Positions 6,602 through 58,706 of a stretch of 64,000 bases of DNA are shown one piece after another. The notes under the pieces are model-generated. The model made no database searches, was not told the origin of the DNA, and saw only the letters and a program-made list of their open reading frames with translations. The first letter of the stretch is position 1. Every line of letters begins with the position of its first letter. The translations under genes were made by a program, and so were the position numbers. Source of the DNA: Vulcanimicrobiota bacterium (GTDB lineage Bacteria; Vulcanimicrobiota; Vulcanimicrobiia; Vulcanimicrobiales; Vulcanimicrobiaceae); contig JAFAJV010000108.1 in NCBI GenBank assembly GCA_019235995.1, positions 62,001 through 126,000 of the forward strand, in the 5' to 3' direction.

Positions 6602-6662
6602 CGGCGTCGAAGCTTCGACCGCTTATCCTGAGTCACCCTTGCCGCTGGACATCCGAAAAACT

Positions 6663-8431: not shown

Positions 8432-8487
8432 CGCCTTTTGGCGGCGTGGCGAAGGGCGCCGCGCCGTCCGTTACTAACCAGCAGTAC

Positions 8488-9971: not shown

Positions 9972-9982
9972 GCCATTAGACC

Positions 9983-11310: not shown

Positions 11311-11684
11311 ACGCCTCCGAATCGGCGACACTCGCGCGGTTGAGAGTCTCGGTGGTCGCGACGACCCTGGTGGTGGCTGCGATCGCGGCGGTAGCGCTTC
11401 TGCCGGCGCTTCCTTACGCCGCGCTCGCCGTGGGTGTCGGGGCGGCGTGCGGCGTCGCGAACATGCTCGCAATCATGCGAGGAAGCGAGCGCCTGCTAAA
11501 CACGCGGAACGCGGCGTTCTTTGGGTTAAGTAGTTTACTGCGGCTGGCCGCCTTTAGTATAGTAGCCGCGGCATTGGCGGTTCGGGGGCCCTGGTGGGCG
11601 CTCGGGCCGTTTCTCGCCGCTTTTTTTCTCCCGCTTGCCACGTACGCGTTTCGCGCGTGGCGACTCTTCCGCAGCAAGACGTAA
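11307..11684 (+). CDS. atpI: ATP synthase subunit I-like protein
   Basis: A 125-residue protein with four predicted membrane helices, preceding atpB as AtpI does. AtpI proteins assist assembly of the c-ring. The segment GVGAACGVANMLAIMRGSERLL resembles the middle loop of AtpI. Sequence conservation in this family is weak, so position in the operon is the main support. The ATG overlaps the atpZ stop (ATGA). Confidence 0.7.
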   Translation: MNASESATLARLRVSVVATTLVVAAIAAVALLPALPYAALAVGVGAACGVANMLAIMRGSERLLNTRNAAFFGLSSLLRLAAFSIVAAALAVRGPWWALGPFLAAFFLPLATYAFRAWRLFRSKT

Positions 11685-33920: not shown

Positions 33921-35543
33921 ATGGCGGTCAAGCACGAATCGTCGCGTCCTGGTTCGCTCGAGCGCTACCATAAGAAGCGCGACTTCGCTCAGACGCCCGA
34001 GCCGAGCGGTCGCACGCGTCGGGGCGGAGCGGCAGCCGGACGGCGGAAGATGCGCTTCGTGGTGCAGATGCACCGCGCCACGCGGTTGCATTACGACTTC
34101 CGCCTCGAGGCCGGCGGCGTATTGGCGTCATGGGCGGTCCCCAAGGGGCCGACGCTCGTTTCCGGCGATCGGCGTCTCGCCATGCACGTCGAGGATCATC
34201 CGCTCGACTATCGGGACTTCGAGGGCAACATCCCGGCCGGGCAGTACGGCGCGGGCAGCGTCATCGTCTGGGACCGCGGCACCTACACGCTCGCCGAGGG
34301 CGACGATCCGGCGGCCGAGATCGGGGCCGGGAAAATCACATTCATCCTGCATGGCAAGAAGCTTCGTGGCGAATTCACGCTCGTGAAAATCAAGGCGCGC
34401 GAGGGCGAGAGCGGCGAGCCGTGGCTGCTGATCAAGGATCGCGACGAGTACTCGGACGCGAGGTACGATCCCGCGAAGCATCCCGAGTCCGTCAAGAGCG
34501 GGAAGACGCTCGCGGACGTCGCCGGCGACAAGCGCGCGCGCACGTGGCAGTCGAAACCCAGCGCGCGGCAGGCGACGGCGACGCGCCGGCGATCGAGCGC
34601 CGGACGCGACCCGCTGCCGCACCCGAAGGCGCTCATGCTCGCGACGCTGATCGACGAACCGTTCGACGATCCGGAATGGCTGTTCGAGATCAAGTGGGAC
34701 GGCTATCGCGCGCTCTGCACCATCGACGCCGGAAAGTTGTCCCTCGTTTCGCGCAACGGGCTCGACATGCTCGCGCGCTTCCCGGACCTGGCGCAGCTGT
34801 CGACCGCATTTGCGAGCGTTCCCGTCATGGTCGACGGCGAGATCGTCAGCCTCGACTCACGCGGACGCTCGTCGTTCCAGCGACTGCAGGAGTCGCAGAA
34901 GAAGCCGGCCGGCCTTACGTACGCCGCCTTCGACCTGCTCTACGCCGACGGCGCGGATCTGCGGTCCAAGCCGCTCGAGGAGCGCAAGGCGCTGCTCGAA
35001 CGATTGATTCGCGACGACGGCGTCGTGTTGTATTCCAAGCACGTCGTCGAGCGCGGCGTGAAGCTCTTCGAGAACGCGCGCAAACGCGGGCTTGAGGGGA
35101 TCATCGGAAAGAAGCGCAGCTCGACCTACCAAGAGCGGCGCAGCCGCGACTGGGTGAAGATCAAAACGGGCCACGAGCAGGAGTTCGTCGTGGGAGGCTG
35201 GACCGATCCGAAGGGAAGCCGCAAGGGCTTCGGAGCGCTGCTCCTCGGCGTCTATCACGGTGGAGCGCTGCGCTACGTCGGCTCGGTCGGAACCGGCTTT
35301 AGCGCGAAGCTTCTCACCGAGCTTGCGGCGAGGCTGCGCAAGCTGGAGCGTAAGACGTCCCCCTTCGGCAACGACGTCGAGGTGCGCCCGCGGCCGCACT
35401 GGACGTCACCGGAGCTCGTGGTCGAGGTCCGCTTCTCCGAATGGACGCGCGACGGTTACCTGCGTCAGCCGGCCTATCTCGGCCTTCGTCCGGACAAACG
35501 GGCGCGCGACGTCGTGGCCGAAATACCGGTGCACGCGCAGTGA
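33921..35543 (+). CDS. ligD: LigD: 3'-phosphoesterase plus ATP-dependent DNA ligase
   Basis: A 540-residue protein combining a phosphoesterase domain (residues ~43-150: MRFVVQMHRATRLHYDFRLE, HVEDHPLDYRDFEG, GAGSVIVWDRG) with an ATP-dependent ligase (residues ~225-540). The adenylated Lys258 is in FEIKWDGYRA; GLEGIIGKK and SRDWVKIK are the later ligase motifs. In bacterial NHEJ LigD cleans 3' ends and seals the break. The polymerase domain is a separate gene just downstream, coupled by GTGA. Confidence 0.94.
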   Translation: MAVKHESSRPGSLERYHKKRDFAQTPEPSGRTRRGGAAAGRRKMRFVVQMHRATRLHYDFRLEAGGVLASWAVPKGPTLVSGDRRLAMHVEDHPLDYRDFEGNIPAGQYGAGSVIVWDRGTYTLAEGDDPAAEIGAGKITFILHGKKLRGEFTLVKIKAREGESGEPWLLIKDRDEYSDARYDPAKHPESVKSGKTLADVAGDKRARTWQSKPSARQATATRRRSSAGRDPLPHPKALMLATLIDEPFDDPEWLFEIKWDGYRALCTIDAGKLSLVSRNGLDMLARFPDLAQLSTAFASVPVMVDGEIVSLDSRGRSSFQRLQESQKKPAGLTYAAFDLLYADGADLRSKPLEERKALLERLIRDDGVVLYSKHVVERGVKLFENARKRGLEGIIGKKRSSTYQERRSRDWVKIKTGHEQEFVVGGWTDPKGSRKGFGALLLGVYHGGALRYVGSVGTGFSAKLLTELAARLRKLERKTSPFGNDVEVRPRPHWTSPELVVEVRFSEWTRDGYLRQPAYLGLRPDKRARDVVAEIPVHAQ

Positions 35544-36508
35544 CATCTGCACGCGTAACGCGACGCGTCGGATCCCGCGAGCTGTCGCTCTCGAACCTCG
35601 AAAAGATTCTCTGGCCGAAGGACGGCTACACGAAGGGCGATCTCATCGCGTATTACGAGCGCGTCGCTTCCCTCGCGATCCCGCACCTGAAAGGCAGGCC
35701 GCTGACGCTGCAGCGCTATCCGGACGGCATCGATCGCCAGACATTCTTCGAAAAGCAGATCCCGCGCGGCGTCCCCGACTGGGTGGAACGCGTGACGGTC
35801 CCCACTCCCAGCGGCTCGCGCAGCCACATCACGTTCATGTTATGCAACGACGCGCCGACGCTGGTCTTGCTTGCCAACCTCGCGACGATCGTGTTGCACG
35901 TCTGGACGTCGCGCCTTCCCGCGCTCGAGGAGCCCGACTTCGTCATCTTCGATCTCGATCCGGGCGAGCGATGCACGCTGCGCACGCTCGGCGAGGTCGC
36001 GCTGGGCGTTCGCGACTTGCTCGGAGAGATAGGGCTGAACCCGCTCGTGAAGACGACGGGCGGATACGGGCTGCACGTCGTGTTGCCGTTGCGTTCCGGC
36101 TACTCCTACGATACCGCGAAGGTCTTCGCGGAGGTCGTCGCGCGGGAGGCGGCACGGCGGCTCGGAGCGAGCGTCACACTGCAGCGGGCGATCGCCAAGC
36201 GCCCGCAGCAGGCCGTCTATCTCGACTACGTGCAGGTCGGCCTCGGCAAGACGATCGTCGCGCCCTACTCCGTGCGGGCGCGCGATGAGGCTCCCGTCTC
36301 GACGCCGTTGCATTGGTCCGAGGTGGAGGCGTTCGCACGCCGCCGCGGGACGATCGCCCCAGCCGATGAGTTCGCGAAGCACACGATTGCCACGGCGCCC
36401 AAGCGCTTCGCGCGCGAGGGCGACCTATGGGGGGTGCGCCACTGGAAGAAGCAGCGGCTCGAGGCCGCTATCCGCAAGGCGCAGCGACTTTGGTCGCAGG
36501 CGGGATAG
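35540..36508 (+). CDS. LigD polymerase domain (archaeo-eukaryotic primase type)
   Basis: A 322-residue stand-alone LigD polymerase (LigD-Pol/PolDom). ELSLSNLEKILWPKDGYTKGDL at the N-terminus (28036-independent: 35579 onward), the catalytic DLDPG acid pair in DFVIFDLDPG, and GGYGLHVVLPL and RPQQAVYLDYVQ are characteristic. It adds (ribo)nucleotides at broken ends during NHEJ. The GTG start lies in the ligase stop, and Ku follows after 35 bases, so the three proteins should be made together. Confidence 0.93.
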   Translation: MTSARVTRRVGSRELSLSNLEKILWPKDGYTKGDLIAYYERVASLAIPHLKGRPLTLQRYPDGIDRQTFFEKQIPRGVPDWVERVTVPTPSGSRSHITFMLCNDAPTLVLLANLATIVLHVWTSRLPALEEPDFVIFDLDPGERCTLRTLGEVALGVRDLLGEIGLNPLVKTTGGYGLHVVLPLRSGYSYDTAKVFAEVVAREAARRLGASVTLQRAIAKRPQQAVYLDYVQVGLGKTIVAPYSVRARDEAPVSTPLHWSEVEAFARRRGTIAPADEFAKHTIATAPKRFAREGDLWGVRHWKKQRLEAAIRKAQRLWSQAG

Positions 36509-36543
36509 ACGCGGGCATGCAGCTTGGGTAGAATATTCGGGCT

Positions 36544-37377
36544 ATGGCGCACGCAATTTGGTCCGGGGCGATCAATTTCGGCCTCGTTACGATTCCGGTC
36601 AAGCTCTTCACGGCGGTAAAGACGGACGATCTCTCGTTCAACTTACTGCACGCCAAGGACGAAGGCCGAATCAAGTACGAGCGTATCTGCAGCGTCGACG
36701 GAAAGCCGGTGCCGTGGGACGAGATCGTCAAGGGTTATGAGTACGAAAAGGGCGAGTACGTGACGCTCACCGACGAGGATTTCAAGGCCGTCAATCCCGA
36801 GGCGACGCAGTCCGTGGACATCGTGGAGTTCGTCGAACTCGACAAGATCAACCCGATGTTTTTCGACAAGCCGTACTATCTCGAGCCGACCAAGCAGGGG
36901 CGCCATGCCTACGCGCTGCTGCGCGAGGCGCTCGCCACGACGAACCGCGTGGCCATCGCTCGCGTCGTCATCCGCACGAGGGAATACATCGCCGCCGTCA
37001 AGCCCAGCGAAGACGCGCTCGTGCTCGAGCTGATGCACTGGGCGAACGAGATCGTCGCGGCCGACACGCTCGAGATTCCGGGTCGCGAAAAACTTCCGGA
37101 GCAGGAGATGAAGATGGCGCGCATGCTCATCGATACGATGAGCGTAGACGAATTCGAGCCGGAGAAGTTCAAGAACAACTACTACGATCAGGTGATGACG
37201 ATGATCGAGGCGCGCGCCGCCGGCAAGGAGCTGCCCAAGCCCAAGAAGGCGCCCGCGCGAGCGAAGGTCGTCAACCTCATGGACGTCTTGGCGCAGAGCC
37301 TCGAGGAGAGCAAGAAGCGCCGCGGAGCGAGTGCGGAGAGGCCCGCGTCGCGCCGCCGCAAGAAAACCGCCGCCTAA
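36544..37377 (+). CDS. ku: Non-homologous end-joining protein Ku
   Basis: A 277-residue bacterial Ku that rings DNA ends and recruits LigD. It starts MAHAIWSGAINFGLVTIPVKL, the family's standard N-terminus, with VSIP-like strands, KPYYLEPTKQG and ALREALATTNRVAIARVVIR following. The C-terminus is a short basic tail (RRGASAERPASRRRKKTAA) typical of DNA-binding extensions. Together with the two LigD genes it forms a complete NHEJ operon. Confidence 0.96.
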   Translation: MAHAIWSGAINFGLVTIPVKLFTAVKTDDLSFNLLHAKDEGRIKYERICSVDGKPVPWDEIVKGYEYEKGEYVTLTDEDFKAVNPEATQSVDIVEFVELDKINPMFFDKPYYLEPTKQGRHAYALLREALATTNRVAIARVVIRTREYIAAVKPSEDALVLELMHWANEIVAADTLEIPGREKLPEQEMKMARMLIDTMSVDEFEPEKFKNNYYDQVMTMIEARAAGKELPKPKKAPARAKVVNLMDVLAQSLEESKKRRGASAERPASRRRKKTAA

Positions 37378-46784: not shown

Positions 46785-47966
46785 CTACAGAATGAAGCCA
46801 GTCCGAACGGCAGGACGCGCGTACTTGAATCCGTCTTTCGTGATGGTGTAGAGAAAGATGTTCGGGATCAGCGGATCGCCGCTGATGTTGAAGGCGAACT
46901 GTCCGACGAGCGTCGTGAACGTCCCGCCGGACTGGAGCGAATGCAGCAGGCCGAACTTGCTGGTGGCGTTCGCGCGCTGCACCGCGGCGAAAATCAGCTG
47001 CGCGGAAGCGTAACCGTACGCGGAGAACGCGGTGATCTGGCTGACCTCGCGCTGAAAATCGGTGACGAGCTGGATGGCGCTCGGGATCTTGTCGAGCGGG
47101 GGCAGGGCCGAGGCGACGTAGGCACCCTGCAGCGTCGTCGCATAGCTCGTGATCGTGTCGAGGTTGAAGAAGCCGTCGCTTGCACCGAAGTCGCCGGCAT
47201 ATCGCGCGAGGCGCATCGCGTCGGCGACCGGTCCGAGCTCCGCGGTCTTGCCGGCGAGGAAGACGAACCCGGGCGCGCGGTCGAGCACGGTGCGGGCCGC
47301 AGCCGCCGGGTCGGTGCGCGCGAACGGGAAGAGGAGCATGTCGGCCGGGTGACCGTCGGCCTTGGCCTGATCGACGAAGCCGCGGGCTACGTCGTAGCCG
47401 TAGTCGCCGTCGAAGGCGACGGCGATTGCGGAGACGCCGCGCTTTCCTTCCAGCGCGGTGCTCGCGAAGAGCCGTCCGGCCGAGCTGTCCTTAGCGGGAA
47501 GACGATAGACGTTGTGAAAGCCGCGCTTCGTCACGGCATCCGCGGTGACGGTCGGCACAATGACCGCAAGCCCCTGCTGCGCGTATCGCGGGAGCGCTGC
47601 GAGCGTCATCGCGCTGGTGAGGCTCCCGATCGCCCCGATGACCGAGAAATCCGCTCCGGCGACGTTGACGTTGGAGGCGGCGACGCCGGGATCGTTGCGA
47701 TCATCCAATGGACGCAGGCCCCAGACGTGCGAAACCGGCGCGTTGAATCGGTTCGTCTCGTCCACCGCGGCCTGAACGCCCTTCACGACCTCCTGCCCGT
47801 ATTTCTGCAGGGAGCCGCTCAGCGTTACGTTTACGGCGATGTTGAACTGCGGAAGAAACTGCTGCTGCGGCTGGATCGGCTGACCCGGAATGATCTGGGC
47901 CCGGGCGCGGGCTCCCGCTCCGGCGGTCGCGGCCGCGACGCCGGCGATGAATCGCCCGCGCCTCAT
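46785..47966 (-). CDS. Periplasmic binding protein, LivJ/type 1 fold
   Basis: A 393-residue exported solute-binding protein. The N-terminal MRRGRFIAGVAAATAGAGARA is a signal peptide ending near ARAQ (Arg-rich but without a clear twin-Arg motif). NIAVNVTLSGSLQKYGQEVVKGVQAAVDETN and GAIGSLTSAMTLAALPRYAQQG are typical of branched-chain amino-acid-type receptors (Peripla_BP_6). No liv permease genes are present. Its start overlaps the ubiA stop (ATGA), an unusual partner. Confidence 0.85.
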   Translation of the reverse strand: MRRGRFIAGVAAATAGAGARARAQIIPGQPIQPQQQFLPQFNIAVNVTLSGSLQKYGQEVVKGVQAAVDETNRFNAPVSHVWGLRPLDDRNDPGVAASNVNVAGADFSVIGAIGSLTSAMTLAALPRYAQQGLAVIVPTVTADAVTKRGFHNVYRLPAKDSSAGRLFASTALEGKRGVSAIAVAFDGDYGYDVARGFVDQAKADGHPADMLLFPFARTDPAAAARTVLDRAPGFVFLAGKTAELGPVADAMRLARYAGDFGASDGFFNLDTITSYATTLQGAYVASALPPLDKIPSAIQLVTDFQREVSQITAFSAYGYASAQLIFAAVQRANATSKFGLLHSLQSGGTFTTLVGQFAFNISGDPLIPNIFLYTITKDGFKYARPAVRTGFIL

Positions 47967-48811
47967 ACGAAGCCGCCGACGGTCGTGAGCAGGAAGAGGA
48001 CCGAAAACAGCATGTTGGAGATGAAGACCCGCTCGTTGATGATGAAAAGATTAGCGCCGGTGCGAAAGAGGTATTCTTCGTAGAGGATAAGTCCGGCGAC
48101 TGAGACGACGCCGAGATAATACGTTCGTCCGGCGCCCGCGAGCATGCCGGCGCCGGCTAGGAGCAACAGCATTCCGAGGTGCAGCAGGATCGGCAGGCTG
48201 CGCCCGCTGCGCTCCCCGAAGCGCACCGGGAGCGAGCGGATTCCCTGCTGCCGACCGACCCCGAGGTCCATGAGCGCGTAGATGATGTCGAAGCCGGCCA
48301 CCCAGATCGTGACGGCGGCGAACAGCAGCACGGCGGGAAGCGTGATTTTCCCGGCGATCGCGACGTATGCGCCCAGCGGCGCGAGCCCATCCACCGCGCC
48401 CAGCACGAAGTGCCCGGCCCACGTGAAGCGCTTGCAGAGCGGGTACACGAGCAGCAGCACGATCGCGATCGGCATGAGCTCGACGCATAGGGGATTGAGA
48501 TTGCTTGCAGCCCAGAACAGCACCGCGATGCCCGCGGCGGCCGCCCAGAGCATCGCCGACGGTGCGAGCGCGCCGCTCGCGACGGCACGCCGCGCGGTCC
48601 GGGGATTGCGCGCGTCGATCTCGCGGTCGAGGAAGCGATTCGCCGCCATCGCGGCCGTACGCGCGCCGACGACCGCGAGCGTGATCCAGCCGAGCGCGGC
48701 CAACGACGGAATGCCTCTCGCCGCGAGTATCGCGCCGACGTACGCGAAGGGCAGCGCGAACAGGGTGTGCTCGATGCGAATTTCGCGCAGGAAGATCGCG
48801 AAGAGCCTCAC
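47963..48811 (-). CDS. UbiA-family polyprenyltransferase
   Basis: A 282-residue membrane prenyltransferase with eight or nine helices. The two Asp-rich motifs are AANRFLDREIDARNPRT and ALMDLGVGRQQGIRSLPVRFG. UbiA members adjacent to UbiD in non-ubiquinone bacteria usually belong to the futalosine menaquinone pathway (MqnP-like), which is the favoured reading here. The GTG start overlaps the UbiD stop (GTGA). No mqnA-D genes occur in the window. Confidence 0.9.
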   Translation of the reverse strand: MRLFAIFLREIRIEHTLFALPFAYVGAILAARGIPSLAALGWITLAVVGARTAAMAANRFLDREIDARNPRTARRAVASGALAPSAMLWAAAAGIAVLFWAASNLNPLCVELMPIAIVLLLVYPLCKRFTWAGHFVLGAVDGLAPLGAYVAIAGKITLPAVLLFAAVTIWVAGFDIIYALMDLGVGRQQGIRSLPVRFGERSGRSLPILLHLGMLLLLAGAGMLAGAGRTYYLGVVSVAGLILYEEYLFRTGANLFIINERVFISNMLFSVLFLLTTVGGFV

Positions 48812-50307
48812 GGTCTGCGATGCGGTCCCTGTCCCGACCACGCGTCGGGCGTCAGCGCATGTTCGAGCCTTTCTAGGCCGTATTCGCGCCAGCGCTTGGT
48901 CACGAGCTCGCGCGTCGCGCCGTCCATGATCATGTCGGGCGGCCACTGCCGCGTGTAACCTTCGGAGGCGTCTTTGCGCGTGGCGTCGACCCCAATCTTG
49001 ACGCCGTACGCGACGCTATACGAGCCGTGGTCGAGATCGTCGACGGGGCCCGGCATCATGACGACGTCACGCTCCGGCGCCAGATTATTGAGGACGAACC
49101 ATGCGACCTCACGCGTGTTCTGGACATCGACGTCGGAATCGACGACGATCAAGACGCGCGTCAGCATCATCATGTGGCCCAATCCCCACAGCGCGTTCAT
49201 CACCTTCTTGGCTTGGCCCGGATACGACTTGCGAATCGAGACGATCGCGAGGTTGTGAAATCCGCCTTCGACGGGGAGATTCATGTCGACGACCTCGGGA
49301 AGCATAGCTTGAAGCAGCGGCAGGAAGATGCGCTCCGTGGCCTTTCCGAGCCACGCGTCCTCCATCGGCGGCTTGCCCACGACGGTGGCGGCATAGATTG
49401 GGTCGCGACGATGTGTGATGCAGGTGACGTGAAAGGTCGGATAACGATCCGCGAGGCTGTAGACGCCGGTATGATCGCCGAAGGGGCCTTCGACGCGCAC
49501 GTCGTCGTTGTCCACATATCCCTCGAGGACGAACTCGGCCTCTGCCGGCACCACGAGATCCACGGTGCGCGCATGGGTGAGTTCCACCGGTTTTCCGCGC
49601 AGCAGGCCGGCGAACGCGAACTCGTCGAGCAAGGGCGGCAGCGGCGCCGTCGCGGCGTACGTCAGGGCAGGATCGGTGCCGATCGCGACGGCCGCGGGAA
49701 CCTTCGCGCCCCACGCGTCCGCGTGCTCGCGCCCCTGCTTATGACGCTGCCAGTGCATCGCCGTCTCGCGCGCCCCGAACACTTGCATGCGATACATCCC
49801 GACGTTGTTGCGGTTCGTGCGCGGGTCTTTCGTGATGACCAGCGGAAGGGTGATGAAGGGACCGGCGTCGAGCGGCCATGTCGTGAGCACCGGTAGCTTC
49901 GTCAGGTCGGGTTCGTTCACGACGACGTCTTGCACGCTCCCGCCGCGCACGATCCTGGGAATCGCGTTGGCGAGCGGCGCGAGCCGCAACGCTCCGCGCA
50001 CCTTTCCGAAAAGCGATGCTTCCGGAGGCGCCAGCGCGATGAGCTCGCGCACGCGTTGGCCTACCGCGTCGAGATCGGGCGCATCCAGAGCCATTGCCAT
50101 GCGGCGGCGCGTCCCGAACTGGTTCGTGAGCACCCGAAAGTTGGAGCCCCTGACCTTCGAGAACAGCAGGGCGGGTCCGCCGGCCTTCACGACCCGGTCC
50201 GTGATCTCGCTCACCTCGAGGCGCGGATCGACGCTCGCGGTGACGACTTGCAGCTCGCCGGCTTTGCGTAGCGCGCCGACGAAGGCGCCCAGGGATTCAA
50301 AGGGCAT
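48808..50307 (-). CDS. UbiD-family decarboxylase
   Basis: A 499-residue prenylated-FMN-dependent (de)carboxylase. EGPFGDHTGVYSLADRYPTFHV, KPPMEDAWLGKATERIF and DLDHGSYSVAYGVKIGVDATRK are family landmarks. It likely decarboxylates a menaquinone precursor together with the coupled UbiA enzyme. UbiX, needed for the cofactor, is not in the window. It starts 32 bases after the end of the histidine kinase gene, so it may share a transcript with the cytochrome-cupredoxin array. Confidence 0.92.
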   Translation of the reverse strand: MPFESLGAFVGALRKAGELQVVTASVDPRLEVSEITDRVVKAGGPALLFSKVRGSNFRVLTNQFGTRRRMAMALDAPDLDAVGQRVRELIALAPPEASLFGKVRGALRLAPLANAIPRIVRGGSVQDVVVNEPDLTKLPVLTTWPLDAGPFITLPLVITKDPRTNRNNVGMYRMQVFGARETAMHWQRHKQGREHADAWGAKVPAAVAIGTDPALTYAATAPLPPLLDEFAFAGLLRGKPVELTHARTVDLVVPAEAEFVLEGYVDNDDVRVEGPFGDHTGVYSLADRYPTFHVTCITHRRDPIYAATVVGKPPMEDAWLGKATERIFLPLLQAMLPEVVDMNLPVEGGFHNLAIVSIRKSYPGQAKKVMNALWGLGHMMMLTRVLIVVDSDVDVQNTREVAWFVLNNLAPERDVVMMPGPVDDLDHGSYSVAYGVKIGVDATRKDASEGYTRQWPPDMIMDGATRELVTKRWREYGLERLEHALTPDAWSGQGPHRRP

Positions 50308-50338: not shown

Positions 50339-51286
50339 CTACTCCACGCGCGCGGGAATGGCCGCTACGAAGCGCGCGCCGCCGCTGGGCGCTTCGCCCA
50401 CCGTTACGGCCCCCTCGTGTGCGCGCGCGATCCAGCGTACGATGGCGAGCCCGAGCCCTGTTCCCGAGCCGTCGTCGGCGCGGCGATAAAATCGCTCGAA
50501 GATGCGCTCCCGCTGCGCCGGCGGAACTCCGTCCCCGTCGTCGTCGACGACGATCTCGCAACAACGTCCGTTCCGGCGCGACGCTACGGACACGCTCCGC
50601 CGCGCGTGACGGATCGCGTTCTCGAGCAGGTTGCGGGTCAGCTCGCGCAGGCGCCGCTCGTCGCCGTCGACGATCGCACTCCCGGGCGAGACCTCGAGCG
50701 CGACGCCGCGCGCGTCTGCGATGGGTCGCGTGTCGCGCGAGGAACGCGACACGATCGCCGCGAGGTCGACCGGCTCGCAGTGCAAGGCGCGCCGCGCGGG
50801 ATCTCGGGCAAGGGTGAGCAAGTCGCTGACGACGTCGGACGCCTCGAGCGCGCCCCGCGCGATGTCCTCGAACGCGGCGCGGCTGTCCGGCGTGGCACCG
50901 GCGCGCGCCGCCTGCGCGACGGCCGCGATCGCCGTGAGCGGCGAGCGCAGCTCGTGCGCGGCATCGGCCGCGAAGAGACGCTCGCGCTGACGCGCCGTTT
51001 CGAGCGGAGCAATAGTCGCGCGTGCGAGCGCGTACGATGCGATGGCGACGACGATGACGAGCGGCAAGTCCATCGCCGCGATCGTGAGGACGACGCGGCG
51101 CATGGCGGTCGCGAACGCGCGGCTCCCCTCGGGCGTGCCGAGGGCGGGAGCCAGCATGGACGAGTACTCGACGGCCATGAACGCGTAGGCGCCTGCGCTC
51201 AGCGCGAGCAGCACGCAGACGAAGATCCCGAGATAGAGCGCCGCCGCGCGGACGGTCAGGCTCGTAGGCGGTATCCGATACCCCAC
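50339..51286 (-). CDS. Sensor histidine kinase
   Basis: A 315-residue kinase with two membrane helices (residues ~13-35, ~65-90) enclosing a very short (~30-residue) periplasmic loop, a H-box AAHELRSPLTAIAAV, N-box LTRNLLENAIRHA, and G-boxes DDDGDGVP and GSGTGLGLAIV. There is no extended sensor domain, so it may sense membrane or redox state. The only plausible start is a GTG at 51286, 31 bases inside the response regulator gene. Confidence 0.93.
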   Translation of the reverse strand: MGYRIPPTSLTVRAAALYLGIFVCVLLALSAGAYAFMAVEYSSMLAPALGTPEGSRAFATAMRRVVLTIAAMDLPLVIVVAIASYALARATIAPLETARQRERLFAADAAHELRSPLTAIAAVAQAARAGATPDSRAAFEDIARGALEASDVVSDLLTLARDPARRALHCEPVDLAAIVSRSSRDTRPIADARGVALEVSPGSAIVDGDERRLRELTRNLLENAIRHARRSVSVASRRNGRCCEIVVDDDGDGVPPAQRERIFERFYRRADDGSGTGLGLAIVRWIARAHEGAVTVGEAPSGGARFVAAIPARVE

Positions 51287-51924
51287 ACGGTCTCTATCAC
51301 ACCCTGCGCGCCCAGTCCCTTCAGCTTGCGGCGAAGCTGGCTGACGTACACGTCCACGATGTTGCTCGAGCCGTCGAAATCATAGTCCCAGATGCGTTCC
51401 ACGATCTGCGCGCGCGAAAGCGCGATGCCGGCGTTGCGCGCGAGGAATTCCAGCAGCCGAAACTCCGTCGCACCCAGGACGATCGGCTTTTCGCCGTACG
51501 CGACGGTCCGAGCCGTGAGGTCGACGCGCAGTTCTCCCGCCTCGACGATCCCCATCAGCGGGCGTTCGGCGCGCCGGAGGATCGCGGCGACGCGCGCGAT
51601 GAGCTCCTCTTCGTCGAAGGGTTTGACGAGATAGTCGTCCGCTCCGCAGTTGAGGCCCGCCACGCGATCCTCGACGGCGTCGCGCGCGGTCAGCATGAGG
51701 ATCGGGGTCTGGACTCCCTCCGCCCGCGCCGCGCGCGCCAACGCGAAGCCGTCCATGCCGGGGAGACCGACGTCCACGACGGCCGCGTCGTAGCAGCGGC
51801 GCAGCAGGTGATCGAGTCCGGCCTCGCCGTCGGCCACGACGTTCGTGGCGAACTTGCGCGCCTCGAGCATCTTGCGTATCGACTCCGCCACCGCGGCATG
51901 ATCCTCGACGACCAATACTCGCAT
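51256..51924 (-). CDS. Response regulator, OmpR/PhoB type
   Basis: A 222-residue regulator: receiver domain with phospho-acceptor Asp in AAVVDVGLPGMDG and Lys in DDYLVKPF, then a winged helix (LGATEFRLLEFLARNAGIALSR, SSNIVDVYVSQLRRKL). AGAGAGG precedes the ATG. It begins 14 bases after the cytochrome-porin gene on the same strand, so the two-component system is probably part of, and may control, that operon. Confidence 0.95.
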   Translation of the reverse strand: MRVLVVEDHAAVAESIRKMLEARKFATNVVADGEAGLDHLLRRCYDAAVVDVGLPGMDGFALARAARAEGVQTPILMLTARDAVEDRVAGLNCGADDYLVKPFDEEELIARVAAILRRAERPLMGIVEAGELRVDLTARTVAYGEKPIVLGATEFRLLEFLARNAGIALSRAQIVERIWDYDFDGSSNIVDVYVSQLRRKLKGLGAQGVIETVWGIGYRLRA

Positions 51925-51937
51925 TTTGGAAACCTCT

Positions 51938-53068
51938 CTAATACTTCAACGGCCCGGGGAAGGCGACCGTCAACGCTCCGCTCAGGTAGGGATGCTGTCC
52001 GGGTTGCTGCACCTCTTGCATCAGGACGCGAAACGGCGCGATCTGAACGGCGCCATAGTACACGAAGTCGCGATTGATGAACGGGTTGGCATAGGCATCG
52101 TAACGGACGCCGAGATACGCGTGCGGTATCGGATAGTACTTCAGGCGCGCGTATCCGCCGGAGGAGTGCTGATTCGTCAAGAAGCCGTCCGCGTCGTGGT
52201 CGTCTCCGTACCACTGCTCCGCCTGAAAGTCGAGATCGCCGTAGCTAGCGTGCGCGAGGAGGCCGTAGCGCTGGTACAGATCCGCGAATGGGAGCCTTCC
52301 CGTCGGTAAGATGCCGAGCGACCCTCCCAGCACGGTTCCCCCGACGTCGGCCTCCGCGTGCTGGCTTTGCACGAGCGTCTGGCGTAGCCAGAGTCCCAGC
52401 TCGGGCTGCGTGAGCCATGTCGTCTCGCCCGTCGCGATCGGCTTTCCGCCGTAGGCCGAGCCCTGATAGGATCCGAACACGGCGGTGGCGTCAACCTTGA
52501 AGTTTCCGAACGTCCGCTCCGCCATGATGCCCCAGCGCGGCGACGAGAGCGGCAGGTTGTTCAAGCCCACGTGCGCGCCGTAATAGCCGTACTGCTGAAG
52601 GTCGTCGAGCCGTTGACCGGGCGATTGCGCGAGCGGCAGCTCGAAGAGGCCGCCGCGGACCAGCGTCTGCGTGTGGGCGTCGTATCCGGCCGCGAACAAG
52701 AGGTACGTTGCCGACGGGCCGCCGGCGGCGCCGAGGTTGTAGTGTAAGAACAGCGTGATCGGCCCGATGTTGCCGCTCCCGAGCACGATTCCGCCTCCCT
52801 GCCATTGGCGCGCGCCCGCCGCGGGATGTTCGTCGTATTCCATCTGATAGCGAATCGCGAAGACGGTCGTGCCGTGCTCGGGCAATGGCAGGCGATATCC
52901 GTGCGAGCGGAAGTAGTTGCCGAAGGCGTTGAGCTCGGGCAGGACGCTGTGACACTGCCCGCAGCGCAGGTGATAGCGCTGCGCGAAGATCGGGATCGCC
53001 GAGGCCGGCGCGGCCTCGACCAGAACGAAGAGCGCGGCGAGCGCCGCGACGTAGAGCTTACTGCGCAA
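51938..53068 (-). CDS. Cyc2-like monoheme cytochrome fused to outer-membrane barrel
   Basis: A 376-residue protein from a TTG start. Signal peptide residues 1-24 end in ASA; the mature protein begins IPIFAQRYHLRCGQCHSVLP with one heme site (C36, C39, H40). FAxxY before CxxCH and PELNAFG after it match the N-terminal cap of Cyc2-type cytochrome-porins. The rest is a series of amphipathic beta-strands ending in an aromatic residue (PLKY), as in outer-membrane barrels. Cyc2 proteins pass electrons from Fe(II) across the outer membrane. Iron as donor is not proven here; the cupredoxins upstream are plausible acceptors. Confidence 0.8.
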   Translation of the reverse strand: MRSKLYVAALAALFVLVEAAPASAIPIFAQRYHLRCGQCHSVLPELNAFGNYFRSHGYRLPLPEHGTTVFAIRYQMEYDEHPAAGARQWQGGGIVLGSGNIGPITLFLHYNLGAAGGPSATYLLFAAGYDAHTQTLVRGGLFELPLAQSPGQRLDDLQQYGYYGAHVGLNNLPLSSPRWGIMAERTFGNFKVDATAVFGSYQGSAYGGKPIATGETTWLTQPELGLWLRQTLVQSQHAEADVGGTVLGGSLGILPTGRLPFADLYQRYGLLAHASYGDLDFQAEQWYGDDHDADGFLTNQHSSGGYARLKYYPIPHAYLGVRYDAYANPFINRDFVYYGAVQIAPFRVLMQEVQQPGQHPYLSGALTVAFPGPLKY

Positions 53069-53519
53069 CGATGACCCCCCGCATGTTTGCGCCATAGTGG
53101 AAGAAGCAGCCGAAGAAATAGGTCCCGGCCTTGTCGACCGAGATCGTCTGCGAGGACGAGCCCGCGAGCAGCGCGCCGCTGCTGAATCCGCCCGACAGGT
53201 TGTTGCCCGATTGCGTCAGCGCCTTGCCGGTGAAGGGCGATCCGCTGGGAAACTGCGTCACGTTGGGGATCAGCGTAGCGGTGTGGGTGAAGCTGTCGGT
53301 GTTCTGAAAGAAAATTTGGGACCCCACCGCCACCGTCGTGACCGGCGGCGCGTAGCCGGCGCTCAGCCCATAGATCGTGGGCTGCTGCTGATTGAGCGTC
53401 AGATTCACGATGATCTTGGTGCCGCCGCTCGCGCCGTTCGACGTCGGAATGCCGCCGTTCGTGCATGCCGACAACGATGCGAGCGCGAGACTTGCCGAGA
53501 GCCATAGTTTATTGCGCAA
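53058..53519 (-). CDS. Cupredoxin lipoprotein (type 1 copper), copy 2
   Basis: A 153-residue lipoprotein: signal with lipobox LSAC (Cys19), then a plastocyanin-like sandwich. Copper ligands are His in SFTHTATLI and Cys138, His141 and Met146 in GCFFHYGANM, the exact C-x2-H-x4-M spacing of plastocyanin. It starts at a TTG overlapping the previous stop (TTGCGCAATAA). It is very similar to the preceding gene, so the two are a tandem duplication. Role: periplasmic electron carrier, inferred to work with the cytochrome-porin. Confidence 0.88.
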   Translation of the reverse strand: MRNKLWLSASLALASLSACTNGGIPTSNGASGGTKIIVNLTLNQQQPTIYGLSAGYAPPVTTVAVGSQIFFQNTDSFTHTATLIPNVTQFPSGSPFTGKALTQSGNNLSGGFSSGALLAGSSSQTISVDKAGTYFFGCFFHYGANMRGVIVAQ

Positions 53520-53964
53520 CGATTGCCGCCCTCATTGGAGCTCCGTAGTGAAAGAAACAGCCGAAGAGATACGTTCCGGCGCGATCGGCCGTGATCGTTT
53601 GGGAGGACGAGCCGCCCTGCAGCGCGCCGCTGCTGAATCCGCCCGAGAGCGTCGTGCCGTGTTGCATCAGCGCCGACAGTCCGAACGGCGAACCCTTCGG
53701 AAACTCCGTAGCGCTCGGGATGAGCGTCGCCGTGTGCGTGAAGCTGTCGGTGTTGATGAAATGAATCTGCGATCCGACCGCGACCGTCGTGACGGGCGGA
53801 TCGTAACCGCCGCTCTCGCCATAGGGGGTGCCCACCGGGGCGTTCAGCGTGAGGTTGACGTTGAGCGTGATCCCGCCGCCGCCGCCCGAAGACGCGGGGA
53901 CGCCTCCGCCCGTGCACGCGGCTAATGCGCCCAGCGCGATCGCGATGAAGGACCGCCGGATCAT
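53509..53964 (-). CDS. Cupredoxin lipoprotein (type 1 copper), copy 1
   Basis: A 151-residue lipoprotein with lipobox LAAC (Cys17) and a Gly-rich linker. Copper ligands are His in SFTHTATLIP and Cys136, His139 and Met144 in GCFFHYGAPM. VTTVAVGSQIHFINTDSFTH and LSGGFSSGAL are shared almost word for word with copy 2. The ATG overlaps the cupredoxin-SCO stop (ATGA). Membrane tethering suggests it shuttles electrons near a membrane surface. Confidence 0.88.
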   Translation of the reverse strand: MIRRSFIAIALGALAACTGGGVPASSGGGGGITLNVNLTLNAPVGTPYGESGGYDPPVTTVAVGSQIHFINTDSFTHTATLIPSATEFPKGSPFGLSALMQHGTTLSGGFSSGALQGGSSSQTITADRAGTYLFGCFFHYGAPMRAAIVAQ

Positions 53965-55052
53965 CGGCGTGAGACGAGGTTGCGGTCGCGGAATGCGTCG
54001 AGCAGCGCGTCGGTGAGCGCCGTCGAGGCCAGCATCGTTTGCACGAGCTTTCCGTCCGAGTCGAACAGGTAGACGAAGGTCGTGTGCCGGTCGTGATACC
54101 CGTGCTGGCCCTCGACCGAGATCACGCCGAACGCCCGCATGATGCGATGCACGTTCGCGATGGCGCCCGATGCCAGCAGCCAATGGCGCGGATCGGCGTC
54201 GAAGCGTTGCGCGAGGTCGCGCATCGTCGCGGGAGAATCGTGCTCGGGATCCAGCGTGATCGTGAGCAGTCGCGCCGGCACGTGCTCGTGCGCGAGCTCT
54301 CGAGCGGCCGTGGAGAACTGCGCGTTGATCAGCGGACACGCGTCGGTACAGTGCGCCGCGATGAACGTCACGGCGAGCGGCCGGCCGCGCAGGGATGCGA
54401 GCGTAAACGAGCGACGCTGCTGGTCGACGAGGGCCGGCTGCGGCGCCGCGGGCGCGGCCGCGGCGCGGTGCGGCCGCGATGCGACGACGGCGTATCCGCC
54501 GGGTCCCGGCGAGGCCGTGGGTCCCGGCGTCGCGCCGGCCTCGACTTGGATCACGTCGCGCATGTGGAACTCGACGTAGTGGAACGCGCACCCGATGAGA
54601 TAGATGCCGACCTTTGACAGCGTCAGCGTCAGGGTGCTTCCCTGGTTGATCGTCCCGCTCGCATAGCCCGCGGCGAGCACGCCGTTGCCCTTCGGGGAAA
54701 ACGACAGGCTCGGGCTGGGTGGAAAATTCGCGGGCGGACCGCTGCTCACCGTGACGACGTTGAGCGTGTGAGGCGTCGTCGTCGAGAGGTTTTTGACGGT
54801 GATCTTCGAGCCGGGCGGAAACGCCATGACCTGCGACGTCGCATTCTGCGTGTATCCGCTGACCGTGCCCCACGTGGGATCGTTCTCGACGCCGATCTTT
54901 CCGGTGGGTATGCCGATCCCGATCCCGCCCGAGGGGAAGGGCGACGGAGTGCCGCCGCCCCCGATGCTTCCCAAACCGCCGCCGTTCGTGCACGCGGCGA
55001 CGACGCAGGCGATTGGAACCACGAGCGCCGCGGCGACGGTTCTCGGCTTCAT
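53961..55052 (-). CDS. Cupredoxin-SCO fusion lipoprotein
   Basis: A 363-residue lipoprotein (lipobox VAAC, Cys21). Residues ~50-172 are a cupredoxin with His95 in TTPHTLNVV and Cys155/His158 in GCAFHYVEFHM; at the axial position there is His163, with Met164 one residue late. A Pro/Ala linker follows, then an SCO1/SenC thioredoxin-fold domain (~205-363) with CTDAC (Cys235, Cys239) and the copper-binding His323 in DRHTTFVYLFD. SCO proteins load copper into cytochrome oxidase CuA. Fusion to a cupredoxin suggests it metallates or reduces the neighbouring copper proteins. Confidence 0.87.
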   Translation of the reverse strand: MKPRTVAAALVVPIACVVAACTNGGGLGSIGGGGTPSPFPSGGIGIGIPTGKIGVENDPTWGTVSGYTQNATSQVMAFPPGSKITVKNLSTTTPHTLNVVTVSSGPPANFPPSPSLSFSPKGNGVLAAGYASGTINQGSTLTLTLSKVGIYLIGCAFHYVEFHMRDVIQVEAGATPGPTASPGPGGYAVVASRPHRAAAAPAAPQPALVDQQRRSFTLASLRGRPLAVTFIAAHCTDACPLINAQFSTAARELAHEHVPARLLTITLDPEHDSPATMRDLAQRFDADPRHWLLASGAIANVHRIMRAFGVISVEGQHGYHDRHTTFVYLFDSDGKLVQTMLASTALTDALLDAFRDRNLVSRR

Positions 55053-55669
55053 TACGCCGATGGTTTCGTTGCTTGCGGGCCGGGCGTCGCGCCCGTATGC
55101 ACGACGAAGACGTCCTGCATGCCTTGGTGATAGTGGAAGGCGCATCCGAAGAGGTACACGCCCGCCTTTCCGAGCGTCACGTTGACCGACCCACCCCACG
55201 GGATCACGCCGCTGCGGTAGCCCTTTTGGAGCTTGCCGCCCGACGCGGTCATCAACAGAGTTGGGCTGGACGGGAACTTCGCCGGGGGCCCGGCGATCTT
55301 CTTGACGACGTTGAGCGTGTGATCGTGTATCGGAGAGATGTTCTTGATCGTCAGTTTGGTGCCGGGCGCGAAGCCGAGGGCTTGCGAGAACTGTTGCTGC
55401 GTGTACCCGCCGAGCGTCGCCTTCCAGAACGGATCGGCGATGGTTCCGAGGCCCTCGACCGGGAGTTCTTCACTGACGGTCCCCGTGGCGTCACGATAGA
55501 CCTGCGCGTTGGAGCCGTCCGGATTCCTTGCGGTCATCTGGAGATCGGGCATGCCGGGCATAGTAAAGGTCGAGCCATTCGACGCGACGCTGCCGTAGCG
55601 GCCGCCGCATGCCGCGAGAACGGCTGCCGCTGCGAGCGCCACGGAGAGAGCTGCGAGTTTTCCAGACAT
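55052..55669 (-). CDS. Cupredoxin lipoprotein heading the operon
   Basis: A 205-residue lipoprotein (lipobox LAAC, Cys21). It has an extra ~60-residue N-terminal region after the signal before the cupredoxin fold. Ligands: His in IHDHTLNVV, and Cys176, His179 and Met184 in GCAFHYHQGM. It resembles the cupredoxin half of the fusion more than copies 1 and 2. The ATG has a strong GGAGG six bases upstream. It is the first gene of the array; its TAA overlaps the fusion ATG by one base. Confidence 0.88.
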   Translation of the reverse strand: MSGKLAALSVALAAAAVLAACGGRYGSVASNGSTFTMPGMPDLQMTARNPDGSNAQVYRDATGTVSEELPVEGLGTIADPFWKATLGGYTQQQFSQALGFAPGTKLTIKNISPIHDHTLNVVKKIAGPPAKFPSSPTLLMTASGGKLQKGYRSGVIPWGGSVNVTLGKAGVYLFGCAFHYHQGMQDVFVVHTGATPGPQATKPSA

Positions 55670-55724
55670 AAGAAGCCTCCAAGAGAGTGGTTGATGTTGA
55701 CCGATGCTACGGGCTATGCATGAA

Positions 55725-55735
55725 GAAAGTCTAAA
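55725..55735. promoter_or_regulatory. GAAAGTCTAAA motif, copy 1
   Basis: This 11-base word occurs in the gap upstream of the first cupredoxin gene, 56 bases before its ATG (minus strand: TTTAGACTTTC). An identical copy lies upstream of the small exported protein at 56848-56858. Both are AT-richer than their surroundings. A shared regulator or promoter element is possible. Confidence 0.35.
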
Positions 55736-55757: not shown

Positions 55758-56570
55758 TCAAGGACCCTTGATCGAGTCGCGCATCGCGGCGGCGATGTTC
55801 TTGAGCGCGGGATCGCCCGACGCGTCGGCCGTCGCGCGCGCGAATGCGCTGCGCGCCGCGGCGTGCTCACCCTGCCGCAGCAGCACGACGCCGAGCGCGA
55901 AACGCGCGCGCGCGTAGCCGGGCGCGAGCGCGAGCGCGCTATTCAGCTCGCGCTCCGCGGCGTCGAAGCGCCCGAGCCGTTCTTCGGCGAGCGCGAGGTT
56001 GTAGTGCGCGACGGCATACGACGGATTGCCGTGCAGCAGCTTGCCGAAGTCCTCGCGCGCCGTCGCCGCATCGCCGGCCTCCAGCGCGACGATCCCGCGC
56101 GAATAGAGCGCGCGCGCCGAATCGGGAGCAAGGGCCACGTAACGGTCGGCGATCCGGCGCGCTTCCGCCAAGTCGCCGCGCGCCAAGTCGACGGCGACGA
56201 GGTTGGCCATTGCCGCCAAGAATTCGGGGTCGCGGGCGAGGGCCGTGCGCAGCGCGCGCGCCGCGTCGTCGTTGCGTTGCAGGTTCGCGTACGCGATCGC
56301 CAAATCGTATTGCGCCGTCGAGCCCTTCGGCTCGGGCGGATTCAGTTCGACGATGCGGTCGAACTCGGCAGCCGCGCCTTTCCAATCGCCGCGCGCCTCG
56401 GCATCGAGGCCGAACTTGAATCGCTCTTCGACCTCACGTGCCGTCGCGAACGCGCGCAACGCCGGTGCGGAGGTCGTGCGCGGTAGGGGCGTCGAGGGCG
56501 CATACGTCTGCGCCGCTCCCGAGGTCGTCATCAGCTGCACGAGAAGGGCGGCGAGAAGCAGAGCGCGCAT
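55758..56570 (-). CDS. Exported TPR-repeat protein
   Basis: A 270-residue protein with a signal peptide (residues 1-20) and about five TPR units from residue ~48 (AEARGDWKGAAAEFDRIVEL, AQYDLAIAYANLQRNDDAARAL, ALYSRGIVALEAGDAATA, AHYNLALAEERLGRFDAAER, ARFALGVVLLRQGEHAAA). TPR proteins act as assembly scaffolds; here a role in assembling the neighbouring electron-transfer proteins is possible but unproven. It lies 88 bases upstream of the cupredoxin operon. Confidence 0.82.
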   Translation of the reverse strand: MRALLLAALLVQLMTTSGAAQTYAPSTPLPRTTSAPALRAFATAREVEERFKFGLDAEARGDWKGAAAEFDRIVELNPPEPKGSTAQYDLAIAYANLQRNDDAARALRTALARDPEFLAAMANLVAVDLARGDLAEARRIADRYVALAPDSARALYSRGIVALEAGDAATAREDFGKLLHGNPSYAVAHYNLALAEERLGRFDAAERELNSALALAPGYARARFALGVVLLRQGEHAAARSAFARATADASGDPALKNIAAAMRDSIKGP

Positions 56571-56573: not shown

Positions 56574-56843
56574 TCACGGAGTGCTGGGGTCGGTGGGGAG
56601 CTCGGACGCGCGAGCGTCCTTGGATGCCGCCGCATGCTCGGGCTTGCACTGCCAACCGATCCGCCCCGCCGACGTGATGGGGCCGAGCAGGGCGGGGGCA
56701 GACGAGGGCGTCAGCGCTCCATCCAGCATCGCTTGCAGCGAGGCTGCGCCCGCCAGGGCGAAGCGCCCGGACAACAAGGTGCCGGCGAGGAACGCGACCG
56801 CGAGGACGCTGGAGGCCAGGGTTCTTGACACTATCTGTATCAT
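56574..56843 (-). CDS. Small exported protein
   Basis: An 89-residue protein with an N-terminal hydrophobic signal or anchor (residues ~8-34: LASSVLAVAFLAGTLLSGRF) and a polar tail with one Cys (IGWQCKPEHA). No family recognised. The TGA ends three bases before the start of the TPR gene, so they are likely co-transcribed. The ATG at 56843 lies just five bases from a GAAAGTCTAAA motif and 22 bases from the divergent receptor-like gene. Confidence 0.6.
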   Translation of the reverse strand: MIQIVSRTLASSVLAVAFLAGTLLSGRFALAGAASLQAMLDGALTPSSAPALLGPITSAGRIGWQCKPEHAAASKDARASELPTDPSTP

Positions 56844-56864: not shown

Positions 56865-58706
56865 GTGAATCGCTCGCTGGAGTGCGCCGCGGCGCTGCTG
56901 ATCGTGACGCTCGTGGCGGCACCGGCGTCGGCCCAGGTCCCCCTCATCGTGGGATCCGTCCGGGACCAGCGAGGTACGCCGGTCGACGGAGCGCTCGTCA
57001 GCGGGCGGGGCCCGGACGGCCGCGTCGCCCAGACCCTTACGGACTCCGCGGGAACCTTTGCGCTGCGCGGCCAGGGCCTCGTGTTGCTGGTGACGTGCCG
57101 GTACTGCGAGCCGACCAGGCTCGCGCCCGGCCCCTCGGGCGCGCCGGTCGTGGCCATCGTGCGGCGCTATCAGGCGCTGTTGGCGGACGGGCCGTCGAGC
57201 GCCGATCTCGATAATCTGCCCTACTCGCACGTAGAGTCCGCGCTCGCGCTTCACCCCTTCCAGTTGCTCTCTGCGAGCATGACGCCGTATCCCGGCTCGA
57301 GCCTGAGCGACCGGGGTCTCTCCCCGAGCGGCTCGCTGTTGATCGACGACGGCGTGCCGAACTACGACATCGTCAACGGTCTATCGCCCTACTCGTTCAT
57401 CCCCGCGAGCTACGAGCGCGACGCGGCGTTCACGAATGCGACGGGCGCCTTTCGATACGGAGATCAAGCCGGCGGTGGAGTCGTCGCGCTCTCGCCGTTC
57501 GGCGCGGGTCCCAACGGCCAGGTCGTCACGCTGGGCAGCGACACGATCCTGCGCGCTGCGGCCGGGTCGGATGCCGCGGGAATCGTGGCCGGCTCCTTCA
57601 CGAACAACGAGGAATCTCGCCAACGTACCGATCTCTTTGCGGACGTGCCGCTGCCCGCCGATCAGTCCTTCGGCGTTACCGCCGGGAGCGAGCAGGGGCG
57701 CGATTATGAATCGCCCACGGCGGCGTTTGCGGGCAGCTTTTCGTTCGCGACTGCCACGTTCAGCGATCCGCGCGTCGTGAACTTGCAAGTCTCGGCGACT
57801 GCGGATCGGGGCAACTACGCCATGTCGGAAGACGAGTATCCGATCTCGACCGTCTGGTCGGATTCGGGTTTTTCCGCCGGAATTCACACGACCGGACCCA
57901 TCGTGGGTTTTGCGGACGTCGCGACGCGTTCGTCGACGGGACTCTACGATGCGCAGGCGCTGCCCGGAGCGCTGCCGCGCGTGGGTGCGATGCTCGAGCA
58001 AACGCGAATCGACGCCGGACTCGAAGCGATCGGCAGCGACTACAACGTCGTGGCCGGCGTCGGCGCGTTCTGGGTGAACTACTCGGGCGGAACCAATGGC
58101 GCGTCGCAACCCGCCAACTCGGCGTTCGTTTTACCGTCGGTGGACGCGCAACTCTTTTCCAACGGAAAGCTGAGCGTCACGCTGCAGGGCAGCGGCTCGT
58201 TCACGCTCCCGACCATTGTGGAACAGTATCAGTATGCGGGCGGCCTGCCGATGCCGCTTCAATCGCTGCGCAGCACGCTCTTCGCGGAGGCGCTGAACTA
58301 CACTGACGGCTCTCGGGTGCGCCTCTCGTTCGAGCAAGCATCCGAGAGCGTCAACGGCGTGTGGTCCGGTACCGTGACCTCGACGGGCTTCGCGGGGACC
58401 TGGCAGATCGCGCCGACGCTGTCGTTGCGCGCCTGGACGATGCACGTCACCGACACGGTGCCGCTCTACGGAGGCGGGTTGCCGTACGGGGGCGCCGCGC
58501 CGACGGTCGCCGCGCTTTGGTTGACGTACGATACGGGCGCGGGCCTGCGCGCCGACGTGATCTATCGGAGGGATCTCCTCGAGGGTGCGCCTTTCTATCA
58601 CGTCGACGGCGCGATCTCCGGACCGCTCGCGAGCCGGGTGCGCTGGTATGCCGGCGCCGAGGACTGGCTTCATCGAACCTTCGTCGACGCCGGAATACGA
58701 TTCTAG
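56865..58706 (+). CDS. TonB-dependent-receptor-like outer-membrane protein
   Basis: A 613-residue protein: signal peptide (1-24, cleaved near ASAQ), a CarboxypepD_reg domain (LIVGSVRDQRGTPVDGALVS ... GTFALRG), a plug-like part (SLLIDDGVPNYDIVNG), then a long run of beta-strands ending in DAGIRF, the terminal aromatic of an outer-membrane barrel. It lacks a clear TonB box and is shorter than usual siderophore receptors (650-800). A CRYC pair lies near residue 85. Divergent from the cytochrome-cupredoxin side, it might import metal for that system; unproven. Confidence 0.78.
   Translation: MNRSLECAAALLIVTLVAAPASAQVPLIVGSVRDQRGTPVDGALVSGRGPDGRVAQTLTDSAGTFALRGQGLVLLVTCRYCEPTRLAPGPSGAPVVAIVRRYQALLADGPSSADLDNLPYSHVESALALHPFQLLSASMTPYPGSSLSDRGLSPSGSLLIDDGVPNYDIVNGLSPYSFIPASYERDAAFTNATGAFRYGDQAGGGVVALSPFGAGPNGQVVTLGSDTILRAAAGSDAAGIVAGSFTNNEESRQRTDLFADVPLPADQSFGVTAGSEQGRDYESPTAAFAGSFSFATATFSDPRVVNLQVSATADRGNYAMSEDEYPISTVWSDSGFSAGIHTTGPIVGFADVATRSSTGLYDAQALPGALPRVGAMLEQTRIDAGLEAIGSDYNVVAGVGAFWVNYSGGTNGASQPANSAFVLPSVDAQLFSNGKLSVTLQGSGSFTLPTIVEQYQYAGGLPMPLQSLRSTLFAEALNYTDGSRVRLSFEQASESVNGVWSGTVTSTGFAGTWQIAPTLSLRAWTMHVTDTVPLYGGGLPYGGAAPTVAALWLTYDTGAGLRADVIYRRDLLEGAPFYHVDGAISGPLASRVRWYAGAEDWLHRTFVDAGIRF

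Follow-up and report, generated by a model that had tools for sequence, protein, structure and literature searches.

A Cyc2-like cytochrome-porin and its cupredoxin partners: a putative outer-membrane electron-uptake operon in Candidatus Eremiobacterota

Introduction

The main candidate markers of microbial iron oxidation are the Cyc2-type cytochrome-porins, whose electrons cross the periplasm by a poorly known route. Here, we describe a five-gene operon found at positions 51938-55669, on the minus strand, of a 64,000 nt stretch of contig JAFAJV010000108.1 (the whole stretch is hereafter called the window) from a soil-dwelling member of the little-known phylum Candidatus Eremiobacterota, in which a Cyc2-like cytochrome-porin follows an array of cupredoxin lipoproteins and a SCO domain. 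We interpret it as a cupredoxin-partnered outer-membrane electron-uptake conduit, with donor and direction putative, and give this reading a probability of about 0.62. An operon fixing a cupredoxin as the partner of the porin gives a concrete electron route, here in bacteria that are common inhabitants of acidic soils and of permafrost peat.

Among the closest described systems is the rus operon of Acidithiobacillus ferrooxidans (cyc2-cyc1-cup/acoP-coxBACD-rus), which is induced by Fe(II), encodes a Cup protein reported to be outer-membrane bound, and is reported together with the iron-induced two-component regulator regA (PMC2754497). The window shares with it a Cyc2-type cytochrome-porin and cupredoxins within one operon, a two-component regulator, and a cupredoxin, CupC, whose predicted fold matches AcoP. 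The initial annotation of the window had singled out the joining of the two protein types in one operon; the linkage holds, but it is not new, since the rus operon already contains cyc2, cup and rus (PMC2754497). On the other hand, cyc1 and coxBACD are absent around the Eremiobacterota operon, in the window as well as in those relatives that were examined; plastocyanin-type lipoprotein cupredoxins, with four domains in the window, stand here instead of rusticyanin; one of the proteins carries a fused SCO domain, while no Sco was detected in A. ferrooxidans; and the operon is widespread in Eremiobacterota.

With the Cyc2 of neutrophilic iron oxidisers (Mariprofundus, Gallionellaceae), the protein of the window has in common a signal peptide, a single-CXXCH cap with a PXL motif, a 16-strand OprP-like barrel and a length >365 aa, but it reads AIPIFAQRY in place of the signature AXPXFAR[QK][TY] (PMC8406198). 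A third comparison is offered by the cluster Slit_1812-1818 of Sideroxydans lithotrophicus ES-1, raised on magnetite oxidation, in which three cupredoxin-domain proteins, a SCO1/SenC protein and a predicted cytochrome are likewise grouped (PMC12016527). In that cluster, multicopper-oxidase motifs are described for two of the cupredoxin proteins, and they are predicted to be extracellular (PMC12016527), whereas small type 1 lipoproteins stand beside a cytochrome-porin in the window.

Within the phylum, a Cyc2-like gene was assigned by BLAST and tree to Eremiobacterota MAG (metagenome-assembled genome) 15, of the order UBP12; the accessible parts of that report make no mention of its gene neighbourhood or of a cupredoxin partner (PMC8357290). 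This gene is likely related to the copies of the sister order described below. The initial suggestion that, as far as known, no such conduit had been described in the lineage is in this respect overstated. We found in the open-licence literature no description of a cytochrome-porin with a fixed cupredoxin partner across two orders and without cyc1 or oxidase genes in the operon, and the partnership appears to be undescribed. Given the MAG gene and the cyc2-cupredoxin arrangement of rus, we regard the novelty as moderate.

Results and Discussion

Organisation of the operon

The five coupled minus-strand genes proposed in the initial annotation were confirmed, and comprise the following features:

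51938..53068, minus strand: Cyc2-like cytochrome-porin of 376 aa, with TTG start, signal peptide ending in ASA, one CXXCH and a predicted 16-strand barrel
52919..52999, minus strand: heme-cap motif AIPIFAQRYHLRCGQCHSVLPELNAFG, aligning to proteobacterial Cyc2-like caps
53058..53519, minus strand: CupD, cupredoxin lipoprotein, with a TTG start overlapping the CupC stop; 66% identical to CupC
53509..53964, minus strand: CupC, cupredoxin lipoprotein, copper site of plastocyanin type (H, C-x2-H-x4-M); the barrel's conserved partner
53961..55052, minus strand: CupB-SCO fusion lipoprotein, a cupredoxin domain plus a SCO1/SenC domain with CTDACP
54048..54431, minus strand: SCO1/SenC domain of the fusion (residues 208-335)
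55052..55669, minus strand: CupA, cupredoxin lipoprotein with C-x2-H-x4-M

All genes from CupA through the barrel overlap or abut. The TTG starts of CupD and of the barrel both fall within the 3' end of the preceding gene and overlap its stop, in a repeated arrangement of the form ...GTTGCGCARTAA.... Scanning of all six frames returned AIPIFAQRYHLRCGQCHSVLPELNAFG as the sole match to the Cyc2-cap pattern in the window.

The heme-capped barrel

An AlphaFold2 model of the barrel protein, built with 38 homologs, has exactly 16 strands, preceded by two helices at the N-terminus (pLDDT 85.9, pTM 0.83). Foldseek placed porins nearest to it, the highest TM-score among the matches listed being that of OprP (0.63), which is one of the templates used for modelling Cyc2 (PMC8406198). 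The structure prediction proposed as a check in the initial annotation thus returned the expected helical cap and 16-strand barrel.

As a reference for Cyc2-like proteins, a 37-aa query based on the Cyc2 signature of the literature retrieved nine plasmid records, six of which, all proteobacterial, were used. Profile-profile comparison aligned 46 columns of the cap with these six proteins (probability 96.6, E 7e-10), in support of the Cyc2-type cap proposed earlier for this single-heme-motif barrel. A hidden Markov model (HMM) of the six proteins matched the window barrel at E 3.6e-5 and, among all open reading frames (ORFs) called in the Eremiobacterota loci, its significant matches were barrels only. 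Barrel orthologs share 42-91% identity, and the cap residues F28, A29, R31, Y32, C36, C39, H40, P44, E45, L46, N47, F49 and G50 are invariant in 36 of them. No usable match or family assignment was obtained from PDB, Pfam or NCBIfam with the barrel sequence; the plasmid collection gave no match to the window barrel, nor did viral contigs contain the Cyc2-cap pattern.

The features by which Cyc2 has been defined (PMC8406198) were then compared. An AXA-type signal peptide, judged by eye, precedes a single N-terminal CXXCH; the PXL motif follows as CHSVLPELN, with P and L invariant; the predicted model has the 16 strands of OprP/OprO-like barrels; and the 376 aa precursor exceeds the published length of at least 365 aa. 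Homology to Cyc2 was found in the cap only, in comparison with the six proteobacterial Cyc2-like proteins. In the strict signature, AIPIFAQRY agrees at 5 of the 7 fixed positions, and its spacing to CXXCH equals that of the plasmid Cyc2-like caps. Because of this departure the protein is filed as Cyc2-like, not as Cyc2: judged on its sequence, the cap is homologous but two residues off the published signature, so that of the Cyc2 identity first proposed the cap homology stands and the exact assignment does not.

In the barrel, eight arginines show no variation within the order or its sister order, and resemble the arginine ladder of OprP. His316 (precursor numbering) is nearly invariant and is a candidate distal heme ligand.

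Cupredoxins and SCO domain

All four type 1 copper ligands are kept in the three cupredoxin lipoproteins and in the cupredoxin-SCO fusion, in line with the initial annotation, and a lipobox is present in all four. CupC and CupD exceed the cut-off of Pfam PF00127 (25.0 and 26.2 vs 21.2 bits), CupA falls below it (15.4) and CupB gives no match; though short of this cut-off, CupA and CupB retain the His-Cys-His-Met set and can be aligned to CupC and CupD. The SCO domain was recognised by PF02630 (74.8 bits, cut-off 22.8), and its CxxxCP motif is present as CTDACP.

The ligands H61, C120, H123 and M128 (numbering of the mature window protein) are invariant in 36/36 CupC orthologs. The predicted CupC model (pLDDT 91.8) retrieved plastocyanin as top fold, together with purple cupredoxin, amicyanin, pseudoazurin, auracyanin and A. 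ferrooxidans AcoP, and the CupC profile recovers plastocyanin by sequence too. With all four ligands in a cupredoxin fold, the site is a type 1 copper site of plastocyanin/azurin type, as the copper-site check of the initial annotation had anticipated. CupC and CupD arose by a recent tandem duplication, which is found in the window and in its closest relative.

Asp is found at position +2 in none of the four lipoproteins. Under the Lol rule of Escherichia coli, lipoproteins without Asp at +2 are kept at the outer membrane, which predicts outer-membrane retention of the cupredoxins.

Two known blue-copper proteins were considered and rejected as identities. The ligand loop of rusticyanin is C-x4-H-x4-M; the cupredoxins of the window have C-x2-H-x4-M, and rusticyanin was not among the profile matches. 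For sulfocyanin (TIGR03094), the best score was 19.2 bits against a cut-off of 168.4.

Distribution and conserved neighbourhood

Relatives of the barrel were sought in 84,980 bacterial and archaeal species genomes. The 45 loci with a relative belong to Candidatus Eremiobacterota/Eremiobacteria, except four labelled only 'bacterium'. By our count, about 68 of the 117 genomes in the class have a full-length or clearly orthologous barrel, against none of the 32 other genomes in the phylum.

In 39/40 ortholog loci of the order, the gene just upstream of the barrel encodes a cupredoxin; the exception (L058) has cupredoxins close by on the opposite strand. By our count, a response regulator accompanies 38 of these 40 loci and SCO 34, the latter fused to CupB in the genus of the window and mostly separate elsewhere. 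All 11 loci of the sister order have the cupredoxin-barrel pair, standing alone, with no adjacent SCO or two-component system. Because the pair stands alone there, the minimal conserved unit consists of two electron-transfer proteins. Overall the pair is kept in 50/51 loci from two orders; since the orthologs also keep an invariant cap, chance is ruled out, and the synteny expected in the initial annotation is borne out. In the tree, cupredoxin-linked barrels of both orders group together (SH-aLRT 96), separate from two paralog groups.

The six proteobacterial Cyc2-like plasmid loci, a small sample from plasmids that is not representative of iron-oxidiser genomes, have a c-type cytochrome gene nearby in 6/6 cases and an adjacent cupredoxin in 0/6, and the cupredoxin pairing is therefore a distinctive feature of the Eremiobacterota barrels.

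One genome carrying the operon (G090, locus L056) encodes PufL/PufM-type reaction-centre genes and RuBisCO. Vulcanimicrobium alpinum WC8-2 is described with pufLM and RuBisCO IE (PMC9758169), and we infer that G090 matches this cultured organism. A term search of that report found no mention of iron oxidation by V. alpinum (PMC9758169). The operon being in a genome that matches a cultured species, extracellular electron uptake in the phylum is directly testable.

Paralogous barrels

A second Cyc2-like barrel, 20% identical, is encoded in the window's own genome (locus L071, positions 6358-11678, on contig G000:C97). On the same contig its neighbours are a ba3-like oxidase (COX1 and COX2), a triheme cytochrome c and a small cupredoxin of CuA-like type, together an almost complete electron-uptake-to-oxygen set; in L080 and L082-L084, portions of this set accompany related barrels. 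In a third group (L073, L076, L081, L085 and L086), a YceI-like gene comes directly after the Cyc2-like barrel. Two in-lineage paralogs of the wider third group, L078 and L086, match the strict signature AXPXFAR[QK][TY] exactly.

Regulation

55720..55735, minus strand: upstream box TTTAGACTTTCTTCAT in the gap between the TPR gene and CupA; candidate promoter or response-regulator site
51256..51924, minus strand: OmpR-family response regulator, directly 3' of the barrel gene
50339..51286, minus strand: sensor histidine kinase, overlapping the response regulator gene

The upstream box, or a near variant, lies at the same position in all ten other relatives aligned. It has a single exact copy in the genome, with a chance expectation of 0.12 per window when three mismatches are allowed, and is a candidate promoter or response-regulator box.

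Proposed electron route

The cap, the predicted barrel, the copper sites and the operon linkage are together consistent with the logic of an outer-membrane electron conduit, as initially suggested. In such a conduit the barrel would sit in the outer membrane, with a single c-type heme in the N-terminal cap plugging its periplasmic side. The barrel fold is a predicted one, while heme attachment and plugging would be expected from the CXXCH, the Cyc2 model and a CcsA/ResB system, whose gene pair (recognised by eye) lies 20-30 kb past the window end; the same genome has bc complex genes and encodes three heme-copper oxidases. The cap heme would take up one electron from a reductant outside the cell, for which Fe(II) or some other high-potential donor of acidic soil is the most plausible candidate; Fe(II) is our first choice, since characterised cytochrome-porins oxidise it and cupredoxins are of high potential. 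The heme would then reduce CupC, the blue-copper lipoprotein tethered at the outer membrane, whose site and pairing with the barrel are described above. CupA, CupB and CupD may relay the electron across the periplasm to a heme-copper oxidase encoded elsewhere, or to the bc complex. The SCO domain would load copper, or keep it reduced, in the cupredoxins or in the CuA site of the oxidase, and the adjacent two-component system, acting with the unique upstream box, may turn the operon on.

Several observations weigh against an electron-uptake conduit. Only the cap aligns in sequence with the six proteobacterial Cyc2-like proteins, the barrel part giving no alignment, and the strict signature is not matched. 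Oxidase and cytochrome c genes are absent from the operon, unlike in rus. RuBisCO was sought in the window genome and not detected; lithoautotrophy is therefore unsupported, and any electron uptake would supplement heterotrophy. Further, the two-component system resembles, below their cut-offs, the metal-responsive CopRS/CzcRS types, and the SCO domain and the TonB-like neighbour could point to copper handling instead.

A broader proposal, which we advance tentatively and at slightly less than even odds, is that of an ancestral, lineage-specific Eremiobacterota module in which a Cyc2-like heme-porin delivers electrons to outer-membrane-tethered plastocyanin-type cupredoxins in place of c-type cytochromes, with a two-gene core in two orders, elaborated in one of them by extra cupredoxins, SCO and a dedicated two-component switch. 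Such a module would allow soil-dwelling aerobic heterotrophs, and phototrophs like Vulcanimicrobium, to draw electrons from minerals or metals.

Alternative functions

Copper acquisition or homeostasis would explain the operon if the cupredoxins and SCO bound and delivered copper, for instance to cytochrome oxidase, the two-component system sensed copper, and the heme-capped barrel were a redox-gated pore or a copper reductase. The SCO domain, the TonB-receptor-like neighbour and the tandem run of several copper proteins fit this explanation, as do the high scores of response regulator and kinase against Cu/Ag/heavy-metal two-component families, although these stay below the cut-offs (TIGR01387, 192.9 vs 279.2 bits; TIGR01386, 141.1 vs 292.6 bits) and a CopRS/CzcRS assignment is not reached. 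However, the core conserved across two orders is one blue-copper protein and the cytochrome-porin only, with neither SCO nor two-component system beside the pair in the sister order, nor in some loci of the order itself. Moreover, plastocyanin-type H/C/H/M sites serve electron transfer in characterised relatives, and no copper ATPase, CusCBA part or multicopper oxidase was found among the neighbours identified by family search. On balance we consider copper handling unlikely.

Alternatively, the heme-porin might shed electrons outwards, or oxidise a soluble substrate within its pore (a phenolic, sulfur or nitrogen compound), with the cupredoxins as partners. The eight invariant arginines, in their likeness to the OprP ladder, suggest that the pore may bind an anion, and the paralogous barrels of the same genomes have other partners, so that the family is not bound to one donor. 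Against this, characterised cytochrome-porins oxidise Fe(II) (PMC8406198), and high-potential cupredoxins are better suited to a pathway that oxidises a donor towards O2 than to one that reduces an external acceptor, making this a rather improbable function. Finally, the idea of an ordinary porin, its CXXCH being decorative or structural and its cupredoxin linkage accidental, might draw on the missing Pfam or NCBIfam match of the barrel, but is hardly credible and to a large extent refuted by conservation, namely by the invariant CXXCH, PEL and FG of a cap homologous to Cyc2-like caps and by linkage in nearly all loci of both orders.

Flanking genes

55758..56570, minus strand: secreted TPR protein, conserved upstream neighbour
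56865..58706, plus strand: TonB-receptor-like outer-membrane protein, divergent, with weak CarboxypepD_reg and Plug matches; conserved neighbour

On the minus strand the order of transcription is TPR, CupA, CupB-SCO, CupC, CupD, barrel, response regulator and histidine kinase. An 89-aa secreted protein with no family match is encoded at 56574-56843 and is a conserved neighbour of the TPR gene in 19 loci. On the 3' side of the histidine kinase, at 46785-50307, lie menaquinone-type genes (a UbiD-family decarboxylase and an MqnP-like prenyltransferase) and a periplasmic binding protein gene, which trail the kinase at short gaps in the genus of the window and in some others; the menaquinone-type neighbours suggest a tie to the quinone pool. 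Elsewhere in the window, at 34050-37377, genes resembling LigD ligase pieces and Ku are clustered as a candidate non-homologous end-joining set (translations read by eye).

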